NCBI GenBank assembly: GCA_902615145.1
Contig: CACMNK010000002.1
Coordinates: 84,838-117,316 of the forward strand
Source of the DNA: an uncultured Pelagibacteraceae bacterium
GTDB taxonomy: Bacteria; Pseudomonadota; Alphaproteobacteria; Pelagibacterales; Pelagibacteraceae
Reading direction: 5' to 3'
Length of the DNA: 32,479 bases
Shown here: positions 18,041 to 28,218 of the stretch, one piece after another
Layout: every line of letters starts with the position of its first letter
Numbering within the stretch: position 1 is the stretch's first letter
Position numbers and translations under genes: made by a program
Notes under the pieces: model-generated
The model's database searches: none
What the model was told of the DNA's origin: nothing
The model's input: only the letters and a program-made list of their open reading frames with translations

Positions 18041-18529
18041 ATGTATTTCAAAAATAATACTAAGCAGAGATTAAGATCCATTCAAGGCTTAAGATCTTTT
18101 AAAGACACCTTACCAACAAGTGTAAAAAAAGTTATCGACAAAAGAGGCCATATTTTTTCTGAAATACTTAATAATTGGAAATTTTTGGTAGGAGAAAGTC
18201 TCTTTAAAGTTTGTTTCCCAAAATCATTTAAAAATTCAAATAAATTTGGAGTTAGTACGTTATTAATTATGGTTAAGAGAGGTCATGAAATAGATTTAGA
18301 ATATTCGAAAAAAGAAATCATGGATAGAATAAATAATTTCTTTGGAAATATAATAATTGAAAAAATCAAATTTACTACTTTTGAGGAAGAACGAAAGCAG
18401 GTAATCAGTGACAAAATAGAGAAAAAAGCTGTGACAAGAAAAACATACCACAAAAAAATCGAGGGTGTTAAAAATGAAAAAATCAAAAAATCCTTAATAG
18501 AATTAACAAAAGTATTTAGAAAAAAATGA
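18041..18529 (+). CDS. DciA-like DUF721 protein (candidate replicative helicase loader)
   Basis: A 162-residue basic protein with a DUF721 domain in its first ~100 residues: FSEILNNWKFLVGESLFKVCFP corresponds to the family's WxxIVGxxLAxxxxP pattern, followed by a short beta segment (TLLIMVKRGHEIDLEYSKKEIMDRIN). DciA proteins load the DnaB helicase where DnaC is absent. The long lysine-rich C-terminal tail is not conserved. It starts head-to-head with mutY and overlaps the dsbA-like gene by four bases (ATGA). The assignment rests on the pattern plus the conserved neighbourhood. Confidence 0.75.
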   Translation: MYFKNNTKQRLRSIQGLRSFKDTLPTSVKKVIDKRGHIFSEILNNWKFLVGESLFKVCFPKSFKNSNKFGVSTLLIMVKRGHEIDLEYSKKEIMDRINNFFGNIIIEKIKFTTFEEERKQVISDKIEKKAVTRKTYHKKIEGVKNEKIKKSLIELTKVFRKK

Positions 18530-19101
18530 AAAAAACTATTTTATTAATCTTAATTATTTTAGGACTTTCTATTAAGGTAAATGCTGAGATTAATCGTATT
18601 GTTTCCGGACAAGATGATGCCAAAATAACAATTATTGCTTACGAGTCCCTGACTTGTAGTCATTGCGCAGATTTTCACAATAATATTTATCCGTTACTTA
18701 AAAAAGAATTTATTGATACTGGTTTGGTAAAAATAGAATTTAGGCACTTTCCCTTAGATATTGTCGCTCTTAATGCATCAAAAATTTCACAGTGCAAACA
18801 AGATCAAAGTTTAGAAATTATGATGAGTTTATATTCTGATCAGCAGGCTTGGATTAAAGGCAAAACAATAGAGGAGGCTAATGAAAACTTAAAAAAATTT
18901 GTTAAAAACAAAAATTTTACTTTAGATTTTGAAAAGTGCATAAACGATAAAAAAATTGAAGATTTTGTTTTAAGCGATCGAATCGAAGGCACTAAAAAAT
19001 TTGAGATAAATTCCACTCCTACGATAATAATTAATGGAAAAAAGTTTGAGAAAACTCTTAATTATAAAAATTTAAAAAAATCTTTAGAAAAGCTGATATA
19101 A
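18526..19101 (+). CDS. DsbA-family thiol:disulfide oxidoreductase (thioredoxin fold)
   Basis: A 191-residue protein with a cleavable signal peptide (residues 1-20, ending VNA), so it should act in the periplasm. The redox centre is C44-S-H-C47 in ESLTCSHCADFH, and the cis-proline loop is STPTIIING near residue 165. Two further cysteines (SQCKQD and EKCIND) may form a structural pair. Such 'thioredoxin domain' DsbA homologues sit between a DUF721 gene and smc in many alphaproteobacteria. The natural electron partner (DsbB or other) is not in the window. Start overlaps the dciA-like stop. Confidence 0.9.
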   Translation: MKKTILLILIILGLSIKVNAEINRIVSGQDDAKITIIAYESLTCSHCADFHNNIYPLLKKEFIDTGLVKIEFRHFPLDIVALNASKISQCKQDQSLEIMMSLYSDQQAWIKGKTIEEANENLKKFVKNKNFTLDFEKCINDKKIEDFVLSDRIEGTKKFEINSTPTIIINGKKFEKTLNYKNLKKSLEKLI

Positions 19102-19109
19102 GCTAATTA

Positions 19110-21506
19110 ATGGAGTTTAAAAAAATCCAACTAAATGGGTTTAAGTCCTTTGCTGATAAAACCAATTTCTTAATCGAAGATGGTTTAACTGGTATAGTTG
19201 GACCTAACGGTTGTGGAAAATCAAATATTGTCGAGTCCATTAGATGGGTTATGGGCGAAACATCTGCAAAAAGTTTACGTGGCTCAGGAATGGAGGATGT
19301 AATTTTTTCTGGTACTTCAAATAAACCATCTAAAAATATTGCTGAGGTTTCTATAACAGTTAAAAATGATAGCGGTGAGGGACCTATTCAATATCGAGAA
19401 GTTAATGAGATTAATGTTAGAAGAAAAATTGAAAAAGATAAAGGATCCAAGTTTTACATCAATGATAAAGAAGTAAGAGCAAGAGACTCTCAAATGTTTT
19501 TTGCTGATTTATCCACTGGAGCTCATTCTCCATCGATGATTAGTCAGGGTAGAATTGGGGCCCTAGTGACGGCTAAACCTACTGATAGAAGAGCAATTCT
19601 TGAAGAAGCAGCCGGTATCTCTGGTCTACATGTAAGACGACATGAGGCTGAATTAAGATTGGGCGCAGCTGAAAATAATCTTAAGAGAGCAGATGAATTA
19701 AGAAAACAGCAAGAAAGACAATTGGCAAATCTTCAAAAACAAGCGGAAGAGGCTTCAAAATATAAAAATATAACAGATGAAATAAAAAAAATTGAAGCTG
19801 GTCTTTACTATCTGAAATTAATGGAAATTGATAAAGAAATAACAATTGAAAATGAGATAAACAAAGAGGCCGAAGTTGAGGTTAGTGGATTTAATGAAAG
19901 AATTACAGAAATTGAAAAGTTAATCAAACTAGAAACAGAAAAAGTTACTCCATTAAGAGAAAAAAACATTGAAAATTTGTCTAAAATCCAAAGATTGAAT
20001 TTAGAACTTCAAAGTTTAGATAAAGAAAATACTAGGACTCAAGAAGAAATTGAGAATATTAAAAAATCATTAACAACACTTGATGAAGATGTTTCAAGAG
20101 AAAAAGGAATTATTATAGATGCTAATTCCAATGAGAAAAGACTCAAAGAGGAAAAAAGTGACCTAATAGAAGTTGATTCAAAATATTTTGAGACAGAAAA
20201 AAAATCAAATGAGGATCTTGATAATTCAAAAAATAATTTAATTGATGAAATAGGAAAAATTAAAACTTTAATAAGTTCAAATCAAAATGATACTGCGTTA
20301 GATAGTCTAAATGATCTTGAAAAAATTATTGATAAATATGCTGATAGCTATAGTAAAAATCAAAATATCAAAAAAGAATCTGTTAAAAGAAATGAGAGAA
20401 TCAAAATAATTGAAAAAGAGATTGAAAGCTGGAAAAATTTACTTTCAAATTCTGAAAAAATGGTAAATGAATTAACTGGTAGAAAGAATAGTCTAACCGA
20501 TCAATTAGAAATACTTGATAACCAACCAAAAATACAAGCCGAAAAAAAGGGACAAATTTCAGAGAATTTAAGAAATTCAGAGGAAGAAAAAAAAGAAAAT
20601 GAAAAAATTATAAACCATAATGATGAAAAAATTGGCTCACTCAGAACGAAGCTGAATGAAATACAAGAACAATCTATACAAATAAGAGAGAGAAAAGCAA
20701 GTTCAGGTGCAACTGTCGAGGGATTAAGAAAAAGAAAAAACGATTTAATAGATCGAATTACTTCTGAGCTTAATTTGACTGAGGAAAATATCTTAGAGAA
20801 TTCAAATTTAAATGGTGTTGAAGAATTACCTGACGCTGTCAATCAAGAAGATTTATTAGATAAAAAAAAACAGGAGAGAGAAAAATTAGGGTCCGTTAAT
20901 TTAAAAGCAGATGAAGAAACTAATAAATACGAGACTGAAATTAAAAAAATGGAGTCTGACCGAGCGGATTTAGTGACAGCAATTGTAAAATTAAAAGACA
21001 GTATTAACGAACTCAACCAAAAGGGTAGAGAAAGATTGGTTGAGGCCTTTGAAAAAGTTAATAGAAAATTTAATGAAGTCTATACAAAATTATTTAATGG
21101 TGGTAACGCAAAACTTGAACTTGTTGACTCAGATGACCCTCTAGAAGCAGGTTTAGAAATGTTGGTCAGTCCACCAGGAAAAAGACTTCAATCAATAACT
21201 TTATTATCGGGTGGAGAACAAGCTCTAACTGCGCTATCACTTATCTTCGCAGTTTTTTTGACTAATCCCTCTCCAATTTGTGTGCTAGATGAAGTAGATG
21301 CTCCTTTAGATGACGCTAATGTCACAAGATTTTGTAATTTATTAAATGAACTAACAAAAATAACAAATACAAAGTTTATCATCGTCACACACCATGCATT
21401 GACAATGTCAAAAATGAATAGATTATACGGTGTAACCATGCCCGAAAAAGGAATAAGTCAGCTGGTAGCAGTTGATTTACAAAAAGCAGAGAGTATGGTT
21501 GCTTGA
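19110..21506 (+). CDS. smc: Chromosome segregation protein SMC, unusually short, hinge not recognisable
   Basis: ATPase of the condensin-like SMC family. Walker A GPNGCGKS is at residues 31-38, the R-loop region is IRWVMGETSAKSLRG, and the alphaproteobacterial SMC motif ISQGRIGALVTAKPTDRRAILEEAAGISG follows. The C-terminal head has LLSGGEQALTALSL (about 698-711) and Walker B ICVLDEVDAPLDD (about 724-736). Between them are two Lys/Glu-rich coiled coils. The whole protein is 798 residues, against about 1150 in most bacteria. Around the midpoint (about 385-420) only a short polar stretch, SSNQNDTALDSLNDLEKII, occupies the hinge position; no glycine-rich hinge pattern and no Cys-x-x-Cys hook is visible. 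No frameshift is evident. ScpA and ScpB are not in the window. Confidence 0.93.
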   Translation: MEFKKIQLNGFKSFADKTNFLIEDGLTGIVGPNGCGKSNIVESIRWVMGETSAKSLRGSGMEDVIFSGTSNKPSKNIAEVSITVKNDSGEGPIQYREVNEINVRRKIEKDKGSKFYINDKEVRARDSQMFFADLSTGAHSPSMISQGRIGALVTAKPTDRRAILEEAAGISGLHVRRHEAELRLGAAENNLKRADELRKQQERQLANLQKQAEEASKYKNITDEIKKIEAGLYYLKLMEIDKEITIENEINKEAEVEVSGFNERITEIEKLIKLETEKVTPLREKNIENLSKIQRLNLELQSLDKENTRTQEEIENIKKSLTTLDEDVSREKGIIIDANSNEKRLKEEKSDLIEVDSKYFETEKKSNEDLDNSKNNLIDEIGKIKTLISSNQNDTALDSLNDLEKIIDKYADSYSKNQNIKKESVKRNERIKIIEKEIESWKNLLSNSEKMVNELTGRKNSLTDQLEILDNQPKIQAEKKGQISENLRNSEEEKKENEKIINHNDEKIGSLRTKLNEIQEQSIQIRERKASSGATVEGLRKRKNDLIDRITSELNLTEENILENSNLNGVEELPDAVNQEDLLDKKKQEREKLGSVNLKADEETNKYETEIKKMESDRADLVTAIVKLKDSINELNQKGRERLVEAFEKVNRKFNEVYTKLFNGGNAKLELVDSDDPLEAGLEMLVSPPGKRLQSITLLSGGEQALTALSLIFAVFLTNPSPICVLDEVDAPLDDANVTRFCNLLNELTKITNTKFIIVTHHALTMSKMNRLYGVTMPEKGISQLVAVDLQKAESMVA

Positions 21507-21519
21507 TTAAAATAACCAG

Positions 21520-21795
21520 ATGTCTAAAAATCAGTTCAAAACTCGCTTAGAAATTGCAAAAAAAAAGCTCTCAAAGAAAGACAATGAAAACAAAAAGCAA
21601 AATTCATCGCCTATTGGCTCAGCTTTTAAGCTAAGTACAGAATTAGTGTCAGCAGTTGCTGTAGGGACAATTATTGGGTTTATTTTAGACAATACCTTTG
21701 GTACTAAACCATGGTTAATTTTAATTTTTTTTTTTGTAGGTGTAATCGCAGGTATTACGAATGTGATTAGATCTGCCAAAAATATGCAAAAATAG
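21520..21795 (+). CDS. atpI: ATP synthase protein I (AtpI/AtpZ family)
   Basis: A small 91-residue membrane protein heading the F0 operon, thought to help c-ring assembly. A charged N-terminus (about 35 residues) is followed by two transmembrane helices: STELVSAVAVGTIIGFILDN and PWLILIFFFVGVIAGITNV, with FGTKPW in the loop, as in alphaproteobacterial AtpI. It begins 13 bases after smc, with no visible terminator, so the F0 promoter probably lies within the smc 3' region or transcription continues from smc. Confidence 0.85.
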   Translation: MSKNQFKTRLEIAKKKLSKKDNENKKQNSSPIGSAFKLSTELVSAVAVGTIIGFILDNTFGTKPWLILIFFFVGVIAGITNVIRSAKNMQK

Positions 21796-21806
21796 ATATA
21801 AAATTT

Positions 21807-22541
21807 ATGGCATCAAATCCAATGACTCAATTCGAAGTTTACAGAATTGGGCCAGAAATAAAAATCGGAGCTTTTGATATCTCTTTTACGAATGCAAGTT
21901 TGTTTATGGTAGTCAGTTCTATTGCAATTCTCGTGATCTTTAATTTAGGAGCTAAAAAAAATTCTATGCTACCTAATAAGATTCAACTATTAGCAGAATT
22001 AAGCTACACATTCGTATCTAAAATGATCAGCGATACTGCAGGATCTAAGGCGAAACCTTATTTTGCCTTTATATTTTCATTATTTATGTTTGTTCTTTTT
22101 TGTAACATGTTTGGAATGATACCTTACACCTTTACGGTCACTAGTCATATAATAGTAACATTTGTCTTAGCTGCATTCATATTCATTGGTGTAACAATTA
22201 TTGGTTTTATGAAACATGGTTTTGGTTATTTAAAACTTTTCGTTCCAAGCGGAGTTCCTATTGTTTTATTACCTTTGATAGTTGTCATTGAAATAATCTC
22301 ATATCTAAGTAGACCTATTAGTTTATCAGTAAGACTTTTTGCTAATATGATGGCAGGTCACACAATGATGAAAGTTTTCGGGGGCTTTGTTATAAGCCTT
22401 GGAATAGTTGGAGGATGGCTTCCTTTAACATTTTCTGTTGCATTAACTGGTTTGGAGATCTTAGTTGCTTTTCTTCAAGCTTATGTTTTTGCAATTTTAA
22501 CATGCATTTACTTAAATGATGCATTAAATTTACACCATTAA
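21807..22541 (+). CDS. atpB: ATP synthase F0 subunit a
   Basis: The stator membrane subunit that forms the proton half-channels against the c-ring. It has 244 residues and five or six transmembrane helices. The essential arginine is Arg176 in SLSVRLFANMMAGH, and the last helices contain GLEILVAFLQAYVFAILTCIYL with the conserved Glu/Gln residues. N-terminal PMTQFEVYRIGPEIKIG is typical of alphaproteobacterial subunit a. The F1 genes are not nearby, as usual for this class. Confidence 0.97.
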   Translation: MASNPMTQFEVYRIGPEIKIGAFDISFTNASLFMVVSSIAILVIFNLGAKKNSMLPNKIQLLAELSYTFVSKMISDTAGSKAKPYFAFIFSLFMFVLFCNMFGMIPYTFTVTSHIIVTFVLAAFIFIGVTIIGFMKHGFGYLKLFVPSGVPIVLLPLIVVIEIISYLSRPISLSVRLFANMMAGHTMMKVFGGFVISLGIVGGWLPLTFSVALTGLEILVAFLQAYVFAILTCIYLNDALNLHH

Positions 22542-23910: not shown

Positions 23911-25371
23911 ATGAATTCTATTGTGGTAGGCTCAGGTTTTGGCGGTATTGCTGCAGCTCTGAGATTAAAAGCTAAAGGTCATCAAGTTACATTAGTTGAA
24001 AAACATCCTGATCTTGGCGGTAGAGCAAGAGTTTTTAAAAAAAATGGTTTCATTTACGATGGTGGACCCACCGTTATTACTGCGCCATATTTAATTGATG
24101 AATTATTCAAATTATTTGAAAAAGACTCAAAAAATTATATAGAACTTTCCCCTCTTAAAATTTGGTATCAATTTATTTTTGAAGATAACTCAAAATTTAA
24201 TTACTCAGGTGATGAAACTCAAATGAAGAAACAAATTGCAGAAATTAGTAAAGATGATGTTGAGGGATACGAAAAATTAGTAAATTTTACAAAAAAAATT
24301 TTTGACAAAGGTTTTTTAGAACTTGCGGATGTTCCTTTTGATAAACCTTTCTTTATGATGCGGCAACTTCCTTCACTTCTAAAACTTAAAAGTTATAAAT
24401 CAGTTTATTCATTAGTTTCATCTTTTATAAAAAATGAAAAACTAAGAAGAATGTTAAGCATGCATCCTCTTTTAGTTGGTGGAAATCCTTTTACAACTAC
24501 TTCTATTTATGGACTAATATTATATTTAGAGAAAAAATGGGGAATTCATTACTCAATGGGTGGGACAGGTAATATTATTAAAGGTTTTGAGAAACTTATG
24601 AAAGAAGTTGATATTAAAATCATAAAGGGCCATGAAGTAGAAAAAATTATTTCAAATGGAAATAAAATAACTGGTGTCAGACTTGATAATGATACTAATA
24701 TTTTAGCTGATAATGTTATTTGTAATGCTGACCCACCTGCAGTTTATGAAAAGTTGCTTAATGGAAACTCAAAAAATTCAATCATGTTCAAATGGAAAAG
24801 ACAAAGGATGGAATACTCTATGGGATTATTTGTTTATTATTTTGGAACAAAAAGAACTTACCAAAACATTGAACATCACACAATAAAATTTGGAAATAAG
24901 TATAAAGAACATCTCGATGACATATTTGAGAATAAAAAATTAAATGATGATATAAGTTATTATCTACATAGACCCTCTGCTACTGACAAAACTATGGCTC
25001 CTGCTGGACAAGATTGTTTTTATGTTCTTGTTCCAGTTCCAAATAATCAATCTAAAATTAATTGGTCTATTCAGGGAGAAAAAATGAAAAATTTGGTAAT
25101 TGAAAAAATGGAAAAGGATCTTATGCCAAACTTAAGAGAGAATATTGTTGAAGATTTTTATTTAACACCAGACTATTTCGAAAAAGATTTAAACACAAAG
25201 TATGGATCTGGCTTTTCAATTCAACCAAAATTTACACAATCCGCTTATTTTAGATTTCATAATAAATCTGAAATGTACGATGGACTCTATTTTGTTGGAG
25301 CTGGGACACATCCAGGGGCTGGTGTGCCTGGCGTACTATCCTCAGCTAAAGTGTTAGATAAAATTTTATAA
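23911..25371 (+). CDS. crtI: Phytoene desaturase (CrtI)
   Basis: FAD-dependent desaturase that converts phytoene to lycopene; 486 residues, normal for CrtI. The N-terminal FAD motif is VVGSGFGGIAAALRLKAKG, followed by GGRARVF and YDGGPTVITAPYLIDELF. The C-terminal CrtI signature is YFVGAGTHPGAGVPGVLSSAKV. It is first in crtI-crtB-crtY-blh, and its stop overlaps the crtB start by one base (TAATG). The genes together lead from geranylgeranyl diphosphate to retinal. Confidence 0.97.
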   Translation: MNSIVVGSGFGGIAAALRLKAKGHQVTLVEKHPDLGGRARVFKKNGFIYDGGPTVITAPYLIDELFKLFEKDSKNYIELSPLKIWYQFIFEDNSKFNYSGDETQMKKQIAEISKDDVEGYEKLVNFTKKIFDKGFLELADVPFDKPFFMMRQLPSLLKLKSYKSVYSLVSSFIKNEKLRRMLSMHPLLVGGNPFTTTSIYGLILYLEKKWGIHYSMGGTGNIIKGFEKLMKEVDIKIIKGHEVEKIISNGNKITGVRLDNDTNILADNVICNADPPAVYEKLLNGNSKNSIMFKWKRQRMEYSMGLFVYYFGTKRTYQNIEHHTIKFGNKYKEHLDDIFENKKLNDDISYYLHRPSATDKTMAPAGQDCFYVLVPVPNNQSKINWSIQGEKMKNLVIEKMEKDLMPNLRENIVEDFYLTPDYFEKDLNTKYGSGFSIQPKFTQSAYFRFHNKSEMYDGLYFVGAGTHPGAGVPGVLSSAKVLDKIL

Positions 25372-26222
25372 TGTCTGATAAAAGTTACTTGTCTGTTTAT
25401 GCAAAGTCATTTAGCTGGGCAGGTTTTTTTTTACCAAAGAAAACACTTAAAAAATGTTCTGTATTATATGATTTTTGTAGAGTTGCAGACAATATTGCAG
25501 ACGATAAAGACGAGATAGAGGTCAAAGAAAAAAAATTTGCTGAATTTGAAAATGACTTTAATCAAAAAAAATTTGATAACCTTATTATAAAGAATATGTG
25601 GGGTATCATGGAGGAATTCAACATATCCATAAAAATAGTTCAAGATTTATTGGCTGGTATTAAATCAGATATAAAAGAAAAAGTTGAAATGAATTCAAAA
25701 AAAGAATTATTAATTTATTCGTATAGAGTAGCTGGGACTGTTGGCTTAATGATGGCTAAAATTTTAAATGTAACAAAAAAAAATTCTCTCAAGTCAGCTA
25801 TTGATTTGGGAATAGCAATGCAATTAACAAATATATCTAGAGATGTCTTGGAAGATTCGAAAAATAACAGATTTTATATAGATGAAAATTTTGAAAAGAT
25901 CTCCTCAACTATTAATCTCGCAAACCGTTATTATCAAGATTCTTTCTATGCAATAAAAAGCATACCAATAAGTTTCCGTTTTTCTATATTGGTTGCTAGA
26001 AGAGTGTACAGAAAAATAGGATATAAAATTTTAAAAAAAAAAAACTTGGAGAACTACCAAAGATCAGGGAAGATTTATGTATCAAATATTGAAAAAGTAC
26101 TGGAGACTTTTCTATCAATTTTTGACTTAATCGGTCTATATTTAATTAATAAAAACGAAGATCAAATTCAACATGATCACATTCTGATAAATGAGGAAAT
26201 AAACTTAAATGAAAGAATTTGA
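25371..26222 (+). CDS. crtB: Phytoene synthase
   Basis: Joins two geranylgeranyl diphosphates into phytoene. It has 283 residues of the all-alpha prenyl-synthase fold. The two aspartate-rich motifs are D40-x3-D44 in CRVADNIADD and RDVLEDS with nearby RFY (about residues 159-170); MQLTNISRDV is the family's second-motif context. Start shares one base with the crtI stop, and the end overlaps crtY by 14 bases. The precursor synthase crtE is not in this window. Confidence 0.96.
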   Translation: MSDKSYLSVYAKSFSWAGFFLPKKTLKKCSVLYDFCRVADNIADDKDEIEVKEKKFAEFENDFNQKKFDNLIIKNMWGIMEEFNISIKIVQDLLAGIKSDIKEKVEMNSKKELLIYSYRVAGTVGLMMAKILNVTKKNSLKSAIDLGIAMQLTNISRDVLEDSKNNRFYIDENFEKISSTINLANRYYQDSFYAIKSIPISFRFSILVARRVYRKIGYKILKKKNLENYQRSGKIYVSNIEKVLETFLSIFDLIGLYLINKNEDQIQHDHILINEEINLNERI

Positions 26223-27276
26223 TTATATAATTATAGGTGGTGGTTGTGCAGGATTATCTCTTGCTTATGAATTAGAAATTCATGAAAAATTAAGAAATAA
26301 AACTTTGGCAATTATTGAACCCAGGGAAGAATATAAACGAGATAAGACTTGGTCTTTTTGGAAAGTAGCAACCCATAACTTTGACGATTGTGTGAAAAAA
26401 AATTGGGAAAATTTTTCAGTTAATATCCCAGGTAAAACAAATTATTTAGAATGTAAAAATTTTCCATATCAAAGCATTGACAGTGGTTTATTTTATGAAA
26501 AAATTAAGAGTAAATTAAAAAAAAACGAAAATATTTTCCTTTTTAATAATATAGAAGAGGTTAACACACAAAATTCTTTAGTTTTTAATAGTGTGCCAAT
26601 TATTGAGAAAAACTATCTAAATCTTTGGCAACATTTTTGTGGTGTGGAGATTAAAACAGAAAATGATATTTTTGATGAAAAAATTTTTAACCTTATGGAT
26701 TTTGATTGTGAACAAAGAGAAAGCGTACATTTTTTTTATACATTGCCATACACAAAAAATAGAGCTTTAGTGGAAACAACTTGGTTATCAAAAATGAATG
26801 ACAATTCACAAAAAGATTATGAAAATCAAATCAACAATTATATTAAAAATAATTTAAAAATTAAAAGTTATGAAATCACCTATAAAGAAGAGGGAGCAAT
26901 ACCTCTGTTTTATCCATTAAATAAAAACGCAAAAAATAAAATTAATATTGGAACAGCTGGTGGAATGACAAGATTAAGCACTGGATATACTTTTTTAAAT
27001 ATACAAGAACATAGCAAGTATATTAGAGAGAATATTGATAATATTTCAAATGCTAAAAAATTTGAAATAGATAAAAAATATCAATTTTTGGATGAAATTT
27101 TTCTACGTGTTCTTAAAAAAAATCCTGAAAAAATGTCTGATATATTTTTTAGGATGTTTAAGACTTCACCAAAGACTGTTATAAAATTTCTATCAAACAA
27201 GAGTAATTTTTTAGAGGATTTAAGTATAATTTTTAAAATGCCAAAATTGATTTTTATTAAAGCTTTATTTGACTAA
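26209..27276 (+). CDS. crtY: Lycopene beta-cyclase (CrtY)
   Basis: Cyclises both ends of lycopene to give beta-carotene; 355 residues, slightly short of the usual 380-390. The FAD-binding motif YIIIGGGCAGLSLAYEL is at residues 6-22, the CrtY motif KTWSFWKV follows, and IGTAGGMTRLSTGYTF matches the family's second signature. The ATG lies inside crtB (14-base overlap), and blh follows directly. Confidence 0.94.
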   Translation: MKEFDYIIIGGGCAGLSLAYELEIHEKLRNKTLAIIEPREEYKRDKTWSFWKVATHNFDDCVKKNWENFSVNIPGKTNYLECKNFPYQSIDSGLFYEKIKSKLKKNENIFLFNNIEEVNTQNSLVFNSVPIIEKNYLNLWQHFCGVEIKTENDIFDEKIFNLMDFDCEQRESVHFFYTLPYTKNRALVETTWLSKMNDNSQKDYENQINNYIKNNLKIKSYEITYKEEGAIPLFYPLNKNAKNKINIGTAGGMTRLSTGYTFLNIQEHSKYIRENIDNISNAKKFEIDKKYQFLDEIFLRVLKKNPEKMSDIFFRMFKTSPKTVIKFLSNKSNFLEDLSIIFKMPKLIFIKALFD

Positions 27277-27282
27277 TTGATA

Positions 27283-28218
27283 ATGAATATACAGATTAAG
27301 AAAATTAATTTTAAACATTCTTTTATTTTTTTTTTATTTTGTAATATTGTTTCTCTACCGTTTATAAAAGCTTACAATCTAAGTATTTCTCCATTGGTTT
27401 GTCTATTATTAATTTTAATAATTGGTGTATCACATGGTTCTTTGGATCATATAAAGGGAATGAAGCTTCTTAAAATTTTCCAAATAAATAATATAATCGC
27501 TTTTTATACATCTTATATTCTGCTTGCCGTAACAATTATAATTCTTTGGGTACTTTTACCAACAGTAGTGCTTATTGCTTTTTTAATTGTTGCTTCATTT
27601 CATTTTGGCAAAGAAGATACTCAATTTCTAATTGATAATAATTCATATTTAAATCAATTTTTATTTTTTCTTAAAGGATCGCTAGTTATATTAGCACCAC
27701 TGTATTTTAATTTTAATGAAACAGTTTCTATTTTCAAATTACTATTAATCGAGAATGAATCATTTTATCAAAGTTTAAGTGTGATTGAAAATAATAATTT
27801 TTTGATAATTGGGATTGTGTTAAGTGCATTATCTAGCATTATTTTATTTTTCAAAAAATTTGAGTTAAAAAAATTTACAATTTTTTTTGATTATTTCTCG
27901 ATAATAACCATAAATATGCATTTCTCTCCATTAATAGCCTTCACAATTTATTTTTGTTTTTTACATTCTATAAGACATAGTATTTCATTAATCACTGAAC
28001 TTGATAAAGAAAGTTTAAGGAATGGACTTTTAGTTTTTATTAAAAAAGCTACCCCTTTAACTATCCTTACTGCTATTATTTGTTTAATAGGTCTTTATTT
28101 TTTAAATAATAATTACAATTTAGATAGTTCAATTTTGAAATTAATATTTATAGGTTTGGCGTCTTTAACTTTTCCGCATATATTGCTCGAATACTTAATT
28201 GAAAAAAATGAAAAATAA
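27283..28218 (+). CDS. blh: Beta-carotene 15,15'-dioxygenase, Brp/Blh family
   Basis: Integral membrane enzyme that cleaves beta-carotene to two retinals, the chromophore of proteorhodopsin. About 311 residues with seven or eight hydrophobic helices. The family's metal-binding histidines are visible in GVSHGSLDHIKG (about residues 49-60), ASFHFGKED (about 107) and LHSIRHSIS (about 228-235). I chose the ATG at 27283; a TTG at 27277, directly after the crtY stop, would add two residues. The end overlaps ispH. No rhodopsin gene is in the window. Confidence 0.94.
   Translation: MNIQIKKINFKHSFIFFLFCNIVSLPFIKAYNLSISPLVCLLLILIIGVSHGSLDHIKGMKLLKIFQINNIIAFYTSYILLAVTIIILWVLLPTVVLIAFLIVASFHFGKEDTQFLIDNNSYLNQFLFFLKGSLVILAPLYFNFNETVSIFKLLLIENESFYQSLSVIENNNFLIIGIVLSALSSIILFFKKFELKKFTIFFDYFSIITINMHFSPLIAFTIYFCFLHSIRHSISLITELDKESLRNGLLVFIKKATPLTILTAIICLIGLYFLNNNYNLDSSILKLIFIGLASLTFPHILLEYLIEKNEK

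Follow-up and report, generated by a model that had tools for sequence, protein, structure and literature searches.

A chromosomal Smc protein without a hinge domain in SAR11 bacteria, predicted to fold as a hairpin with a bare tip

Most models of how SMC complexes entrap DNA and extrude loops assume a ring that closes through the hinge. The hinge can nevertheless be exchanged: the accessible text of Burmann et al. 2017 (PMC5344682) reports that the zinc hook of Rad50 can replace the hinge of B. subtilis Smc and that arm length is critical, natural prokaryotic Smc arms having modes at 238, 341 and 515 residues by a measure that needs a hinge. As the hinge was there swapped for another dimeriser, not just removed, this precedent does not cover a bare tip. 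In yeast, engineered hinge-less sub-complexes of Smc5(EQ) and Smc6(EQ) associate with ATP and not without it, in the part of PMC8327961 that was available, and therefore heads alone can join SMC subunits. A natural hinge-less SMC has been described from an abundant marine actinobacterial clade by Sussfeld et al. 2025 (PMC12153180), the accessible main text of which makes no mention of SAR11, Pelagibacter or Alphaproteobacteria. No report of a hinge-less Smc in SAR11 was found in the literature searched, which extended to neither bioRxiv preprints nor most subscription papers; a paper that appeared to link Pelagibacterales with condensin (PMC10308909) was, in its accessible text, a false match on the word "condensing". 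What appears to be new here is the hinge-less Smc of SAR11, that of marine Actinobacteria being known already since 2025.

The window analysed, by which we mean the whole stretch of 32,479 nucleotides, belongs to a metagenome-assembled genome (MAG) of the Pelagibacteraceae (SAR11) and carries at 19110-21506 on the forward strand an open reading frame for a Smc of 798 residues (Table 1). This protein scores 681.8 bits with the TIGR02168 (SMC_prok_B) equivalog model, which has a cut-off of 567.35, and at most 53.1 bits with the Rad50 family models, for which the cut-offs are 700 or more; its N-terminal half-head is matched by Pfam SMC_N and AAA_23, and it is the sole Smc match in its own MAG (0.84 Mb in 55 contigs, estimated to be 73.6% complete). 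The closest named relatives of the protein, 97% identical, are uncultured Pelagibacteraceae, i.e. SAR11, and the genome closest to the MAG, G036, has a Smc that is 98% identical. We take the ATPase motifs to be Walker A, Q-loop, C-loop and Walker B, and residues 554-600 are presumably the SMC joint. Across 29 aligned proteins, the window's own included, Walker A, C-loop and Walker B hardly vary, if at all, and the Q-loop is near-invariant, in agreement with the preliminary description of this DNA, which had called both ATPase halves intact. The same description had put the protein at about 350 residues below a typical SMC; the shortfall is 354 residues against about 1152 aa, and as the hinge core (135 profile positions) accounts for less than half of this, both arms must be shortened too.

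Table 1. The smc gene, the parts of its product and its neighbours, in positions of the window; residue numbers are those of the 798-residue protein.
Feature	Positions	Strand	Basis
DciA-like (DUF721) gene, upstream neighbour	18041..18529	+	synteny with full-length alphaproteobacterial smc
DsbA-like gene directly upstream of smc, most constant neighbour	18526..19101	+	synteny, 21 of 26 hinge-type loci
N-terminal ABC-ATPase half-head, residues 1-172	19110..19625	+	Pfam SMC_N, AAA_23; motif positions
Walker A GPNGCGKSN, residues 31-39	19200-19226	+	
Q-loop, residues 145-150	19542-19559	+	
N-terminal coiled-coil arm, residues 173-389, single helix in model	19626..20276	+	AlphaFold2 secondary structure
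Predicted turn, residues 390-392, at the expected place of the hinge	20277..20285	+	AlphaFold2; arm spans; paired arm deletions
C-terminal coiled-coil arm, residues 393-553 (helices 393-470 and 472-553 in model)	20286..20768	+	AlphaFold2 secondary structure
Presumed SMC joint, residues 554-600	20769..20909	+	model elements; motif position
GSVNLKAD (presumed joint)	20889-20912	+	
Neck helix near the head (601-662) and C-terminal half-head (663-798)	20910..21503	+	Pfam; AlphaFold2; motif positions
C-loop LLSGGEQ, residues 698-704	21201-21221	+	
Walker B ICVLDEVDAP, residues 723-732	21276-21305	+	
smc stop codon	21504-21506	+	
atpI-like gene, downstream	21520-21795	+	synteny
atpB, downstream	21807-22541	+	synteny

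The surroundings of the gene, for which we assume the names mutY, dciA, dsbA, atpI and atpB, are those of many smc genes elsewhere in the class. Among 26 hinge-type alphaproteobacterial smc loci a dsbA-like gene lies upstream in 21, the full set mutY-dciA-dsbA-smc-atpI-atpB is found in 10, one has the two atp genes only and four (L186, L198, L203 and L212) are without any of these neighbours. Since its neighbours are common to full-length alphaproteobacterial smc, the window smc is most likely an orthologue at the ancestral locus. We read the protein as the Smc of the SAR11 chromosome, an orthologue of the one in other Alphaproteobacteria from which the hinge and part of the arms have been lost. 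Further along the window, after the ATP synthase genes, there is a group of carotenoid/retinal synthesis-like genes (23911-28218), which look to us like crtI, crtB, crtY and blh.

The hinge is missing from the window Smc. The preliminary description had recognised none and had proposed a search with Pfam SMC_hinge of the gene and of its SAR11 relatives; this gave no match to the window Smc even at E<=10 and none in 61 genomes, its own included. Of 240 alphaproteobacterial genomes, however, this model finds a hinge in just 74, and its silence alone is therefore weak; it was dropped as the only test and alphaproteobacterial profiles were built. The first was made from 13 hinge segments of other Alphaproteobacteria (the 13 of 40 rows caught by two patterns) and scores the window Smc at -0.5 bits. 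Among the 60 rows listed, full-length rows reach at least 112 bits each and Pelagibacterales rows no more than 0, with the short or partial hinge-bearing proteins L094, L104, L102 and L107 at 50-88 bits. Loci fetched later gave 136-190 bits for 25 full-length proteins (among them L189, whose contig has the same length as that of L079, a row used to build the profile) and 62-64 bits for two short ones; the 20 Pelagibacteraceae rows listed were all at -0.2 bits or below and the rest gave no line. A second hinge alignment, A3 (22 rows, 135 profile positions), finds a hinge in 150 of the 240 genomes of the class, ten of which contributed a row to it, and in none of 297 genomes of the order Pelagibacterales. 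The alphaproteobacterial hinge region matches one solved Smc chain, 5h69 (E 3e-4), and the distance between the 74 genomes detected by Pfam and the 150 detected by A3 is an annotation gap in its own right.

A strongly diverged hinge that is present and was missed would have the poor sensitivity of the Pfam model in its favour, and yet it is extremely unlikely, as the purpose-made profiles separate the two kinds of protein cleanly and the three-residue turn of the structural models described below leaves no room for a globular domain. Nor is there a Cys-x-x-Cys hook, as the preliminary description had also said: CxxC is absent between residues 175 and 640 from all 93 complete hinge-less Smc rows. 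Genomes of the class with a strong Smc match and no hinge match are G000, G267 and G158 of the Pelagibacterales, G083 and G215 of family f25, then G076, G104, G197, G247, G284 and G288, where the open frames are fragmentary, and G124.

The preliminary description had named loss of the hinge in all relatives as support, and the short forms are indeed common to the order. Smc is found in 266 of the 297 Pelagibacterales genomes (140 of the 150 with at least 90% completeness and no more than 5% contamination), with no open frame above 891 aa among the matches listed. The complete hinge-less proteins, 93 rows of which 90 are distinct, some genomes being present in both collections, are 798-864 aa long as against about 1150 in full-length relatives, and fall at 857 (31 rows), 798 (25), 862-864 (21), 809-814 (9) and 858-859 (3), with four of 803-817 aa in f25. 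An assembly deletion or a truncated pseudogene might be suspected in a MAG broken into 55 contigs, but the chance of this is negligible: the exact length of 798 aa recurs in 25 distinct proteins, one of them in G267, a single contig that is 99% complete, and these genomes rule it out together with the order-wide occurrence of short forms. None of the findings that the preliminary description had named as contrary to its claim, namely a hinge match, a hinge fold in either of two models or a full-length Smc among the relatives listed, was made. In two genomes the smc gene (L006 and L011, in G015 and G014) has one or two in-frame stops, possibly errors of sequencing or assembly.

AlphaFold2 monomers of two length forms are alike in general plan. 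The 798-aa form, from a 29-row alignment, has a mean pLDDT of 77.1 and a pTM of 0.47, with the helices and turn listed in Table 1; the 857-aa form (32 rows; 73.9 and 0.40) has helices at 173-418 and 422-444/447-529/531-611 about a turn at 419-421, its confidence dropping to 55 at about 391-400 and to 58 at about 441-450, on opposite arms. No globular tip is evident in the secondary structure and confidence of either monomer, and the model confidence is moderate for both. The preliminary description had placed a short polar segment at about residues 385-420 where the hinge should lie; the bare segment stands, and the site can be narrowed to the turn at 390-392. A Foldseek search of the model against the PDB returned SMC heads, Smc5/6, condensin, cohesin, Rad50 (ranks 10 and 14) and MukB.

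The length forms themselves bear on this geometry. The best fit of the 857 form to the 798 form, obtained by scoring every placement of one or two deletions with no gap penalty, so that some gain is free, loses 29 residues before and 30 after a kept apex of 20-27 residues in 17 of 17 distinct proteins; a single deletion of 59 residues scores lower in all 17, by a mean of 40 BLOSUM points, and was rejected. In the mean matrix the 29 + 30 split gains 39 points over one deletion, other two-deletion splits no more than 15. Measured between motifs of 4-9 residues, the N-terminal span (neck motif to turn) and the C-terminal span (turn to joint motif) are 215/200 in the 798 form, 220/203 in the 809, 244/230 in the 857, 244/229 in the 859 and 247/231 in the 863-aa form of family f2, so that the offset between the arms stays at 14-17 residues over five length forms; the turns come from the models for 798 and 857 and were chosen by eye in the other three, the spans of which are for this reason consistent and not independent. 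An antiparallel, folded-back coil requires matched loss from both arms, which the losses of 29 and 30 residues fit, and the long helices and turn of both models together with these paired deletions fit an antiparallel arm with a joint. The small hairpin suggested at the outset is thus upheld at the level of prediction: the chain of SAR11 Smc is predicted to fold back at a three-residue turn into an antiparallel hairpin with a bare tip. Paired changes of arm length, taken alone, would equally be expected if the N-terminal arm of one chain paired with the C-terminal arm of another to give a rod with the two heads at opposite ends, and both models are of monomers; such a rod is nonetheless very improbable, because both models turn at the midpoint and a turn-like segment can be placed in the other forms.

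How the forms arose is less simple than their geometry. Quick trees of the remainder of the gene mix proteins of the 798 and 857 forms, and their well-supported branches make 2 or 3 switches of length unavoidable, the number varying with the part of the gene used. When the tree is made from the apex and 40 residues on either side, 1 switch between 798 and 857 is enough, whereas the upstream part needs 4 and the downstream part 6; this would suit a tip cassette spread by recombination; once the apex and 6 gap-adjacent residues are removed the flank tree needs 4, control windows along the gene needing 4 to 12. The single-origin signal thus comes from the apex and gap edges alone and the cassette did not survive this control; either exchange or repeated origin may lie behind the two forms.

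Outside the Pelagibacterales, family f25 (G083 and G215; L171 and L173) also has a hinge-less Smc, of 803-817 aa. At the level of the class, f25 with MarineAlpha6_Bin4 was noted for hinge-less full smc open reading frames (L087, L088, L171 and L173). A single clade of f25 and Pelagibacterales is not rejected (p-AU 0.497, with long branches and odd composition flagged), and there may have been one hinge loss or two, both being compatible with the data. Families f142 and f32 and the loci L178 and L179 have a Smc of 864-880 aa with the hinge kept, and L094, L102, L178 and L179 group together with support in a quick tree of the heads; shortening does not, therefore, require loss of the hinge. Other alphaproteobacterial families have an unusually long Smc, of 1523-1531 aa in G086 and G218 and 1426-1428 aa in G093 and G222, measured from stop to stop, and many nearly complete small genomes of the class are without a strong Smc match, for example G065, G080, G107, G128 and G154.

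Of the 61 genomes, 44 gave a match for ScpA, 46 for ScpB and 51 for ParB. The check for scpA and scpB proposed in the preliminary description gave a divided answer, as neither was seen in the window's own MAG (73.6% complete), where ParB is present, and all three proteins are present in its near twin G036. With these partners in most relatives, the gene content indicates that SAR11 Smc most likely works as a Smc-ScpAB complex whose heads are held together by ScpAB and ATP. It would seem very unlikely that it has given up loop extrusion to become a DNA clamp or a repair ATPase like RecN, SbcC or Rad50. Heads and arms without an SMC hinge do recall Rad50, which is among the Foldseek matches, and a changed function has been raised for the actinobacterial variants in the accessible text of PMC12153180; the protein, however, passes the Smc equivalog cut-off and falls far short of the Rad50 ones, it lies among Smc neighbours, has no CxxC hook and is the only Smc found, in a group of which most members have the Smc partners.

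As the hinge that normally joins two copies of Smc is missing, the halves must be held together otherwise, and we lean towards a complex in which two Smc hairpins are probably joined through their heads, by means of ScpAB and ATP, with no stable hinge dimer. In such a complex the ScpA kleisin, with ScpB, and ATP-dependent engagement of the heads would hold the hairpins together, ATP-driven clamping of DNA at the heads would do the work with the short arms as levers, and the top would be open or closed only by weak contacts of arms or tips. The minimised loop-extruding or DNA-tethering machine of the preliminary description is at this stage a conjecture. More tentatively, and with less confidence, we suggest that the order may possess a condensin in which no domain is given over to dimerisation: a Smc-ScpAB with an open top, its paired arms joined by nothing but kleisin and ATP and shortened in matched steps.

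The main rival is that the bare tips dimerise, two apices forming a small four-helix bundle, a minimal hinge that would close the ring like a metal-free Rad50 hook. It owes this rank to a cysteine about 12 residues past the apex (Cys432 in L012 numbering), present in 30 of 30 distinct 857-form proteins amid otherwise poorly conserved sequence, and to the aromatic-rich apex of f2 (YDDP..W, F and FY at about residues 418-440 of L116); furthermore the two dips in confidence of the 857 model look as if the last ~45 residues formed a knuckle of their own. We nevertheless regard a tip dimer as rather unlikely. Conservation is lowest at the apex, at 0.56 in the 798 form and 0.45-0.63 in the 857 form as compared with 0.9 or higher in most of the head sequence, and this argues against a conserved interface for dimerisation in these forms; among the 25 proteins of 798 aa just 12 have an equivalent of the cysteine, the window Smc having Leu, and CxxC is missing throughout. 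The apex of Pelagibacteraceae is variable and N-rich, unlike that of f2, for which the conservation set was 7 rows after thinning, one of them foreign (L114). The conserved Cys of the 857 form and the aromatic-rich apex of f2 do suggest, as residue patterns, that the tip is not idle.

SAR11 are very abundant ocean bacteria and a hinge-less chromosome-folding machine is accordingly widespread. With cultured isolates and the usual partner genes present they offer a natural test of the need for a stable hinge dimer, and the natural length classes (798, 809-814, 857-859 and 862-864 aa) are a ready series for the study of arm length. An open-topped Smc-ScpAB, if true, would mean that chromosomes can be organised without a closed SMC ring. 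Taken with the 2025 report from Actinobacteria, our observation suggests that the hinge has been lost in two distant groups of ocean bacteria.

Of the known systems, bacterial Smc-ScpAB (TIGR02168) shares with SAR11 Smc the half-heads, the presumed joint, the long helical arms as predicted and the gene neighbours, with the partners in most relatives; the SAR11 form differs in being without a hinge and in having arms shorter than those of full-length alphaproteobacterial Smc. Rad50/SbcC likewise has no SMC hinge and combines ABC heads with an antiparallel coil, which in SAR11 Smc is predicted, but its own CxxC zinc hook is missing in SAR11 Smc, the sequence and neighbours of which are of Smc type. 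The mini-Smc and zinc-hook Smc of B. subtilis, as far as the accessible text of PMC5344682 goes, have in common with it arms shortened in length classes and a hinge fold that is dispensable; those constructs keep a dimerisation domain, whereas SAR11 Smc is natural and none is seen there. Finally, the hinge-less SMC of Actinobacteria is likewise, in the accessible text of PMC12153180, an SMC by sequence that consists of heads and coil and lacks both hinge and CxxC, and its hosts too are bacteria abundant in the ocean; it belongs to another phylum and was found as metagenomic open reading frames.
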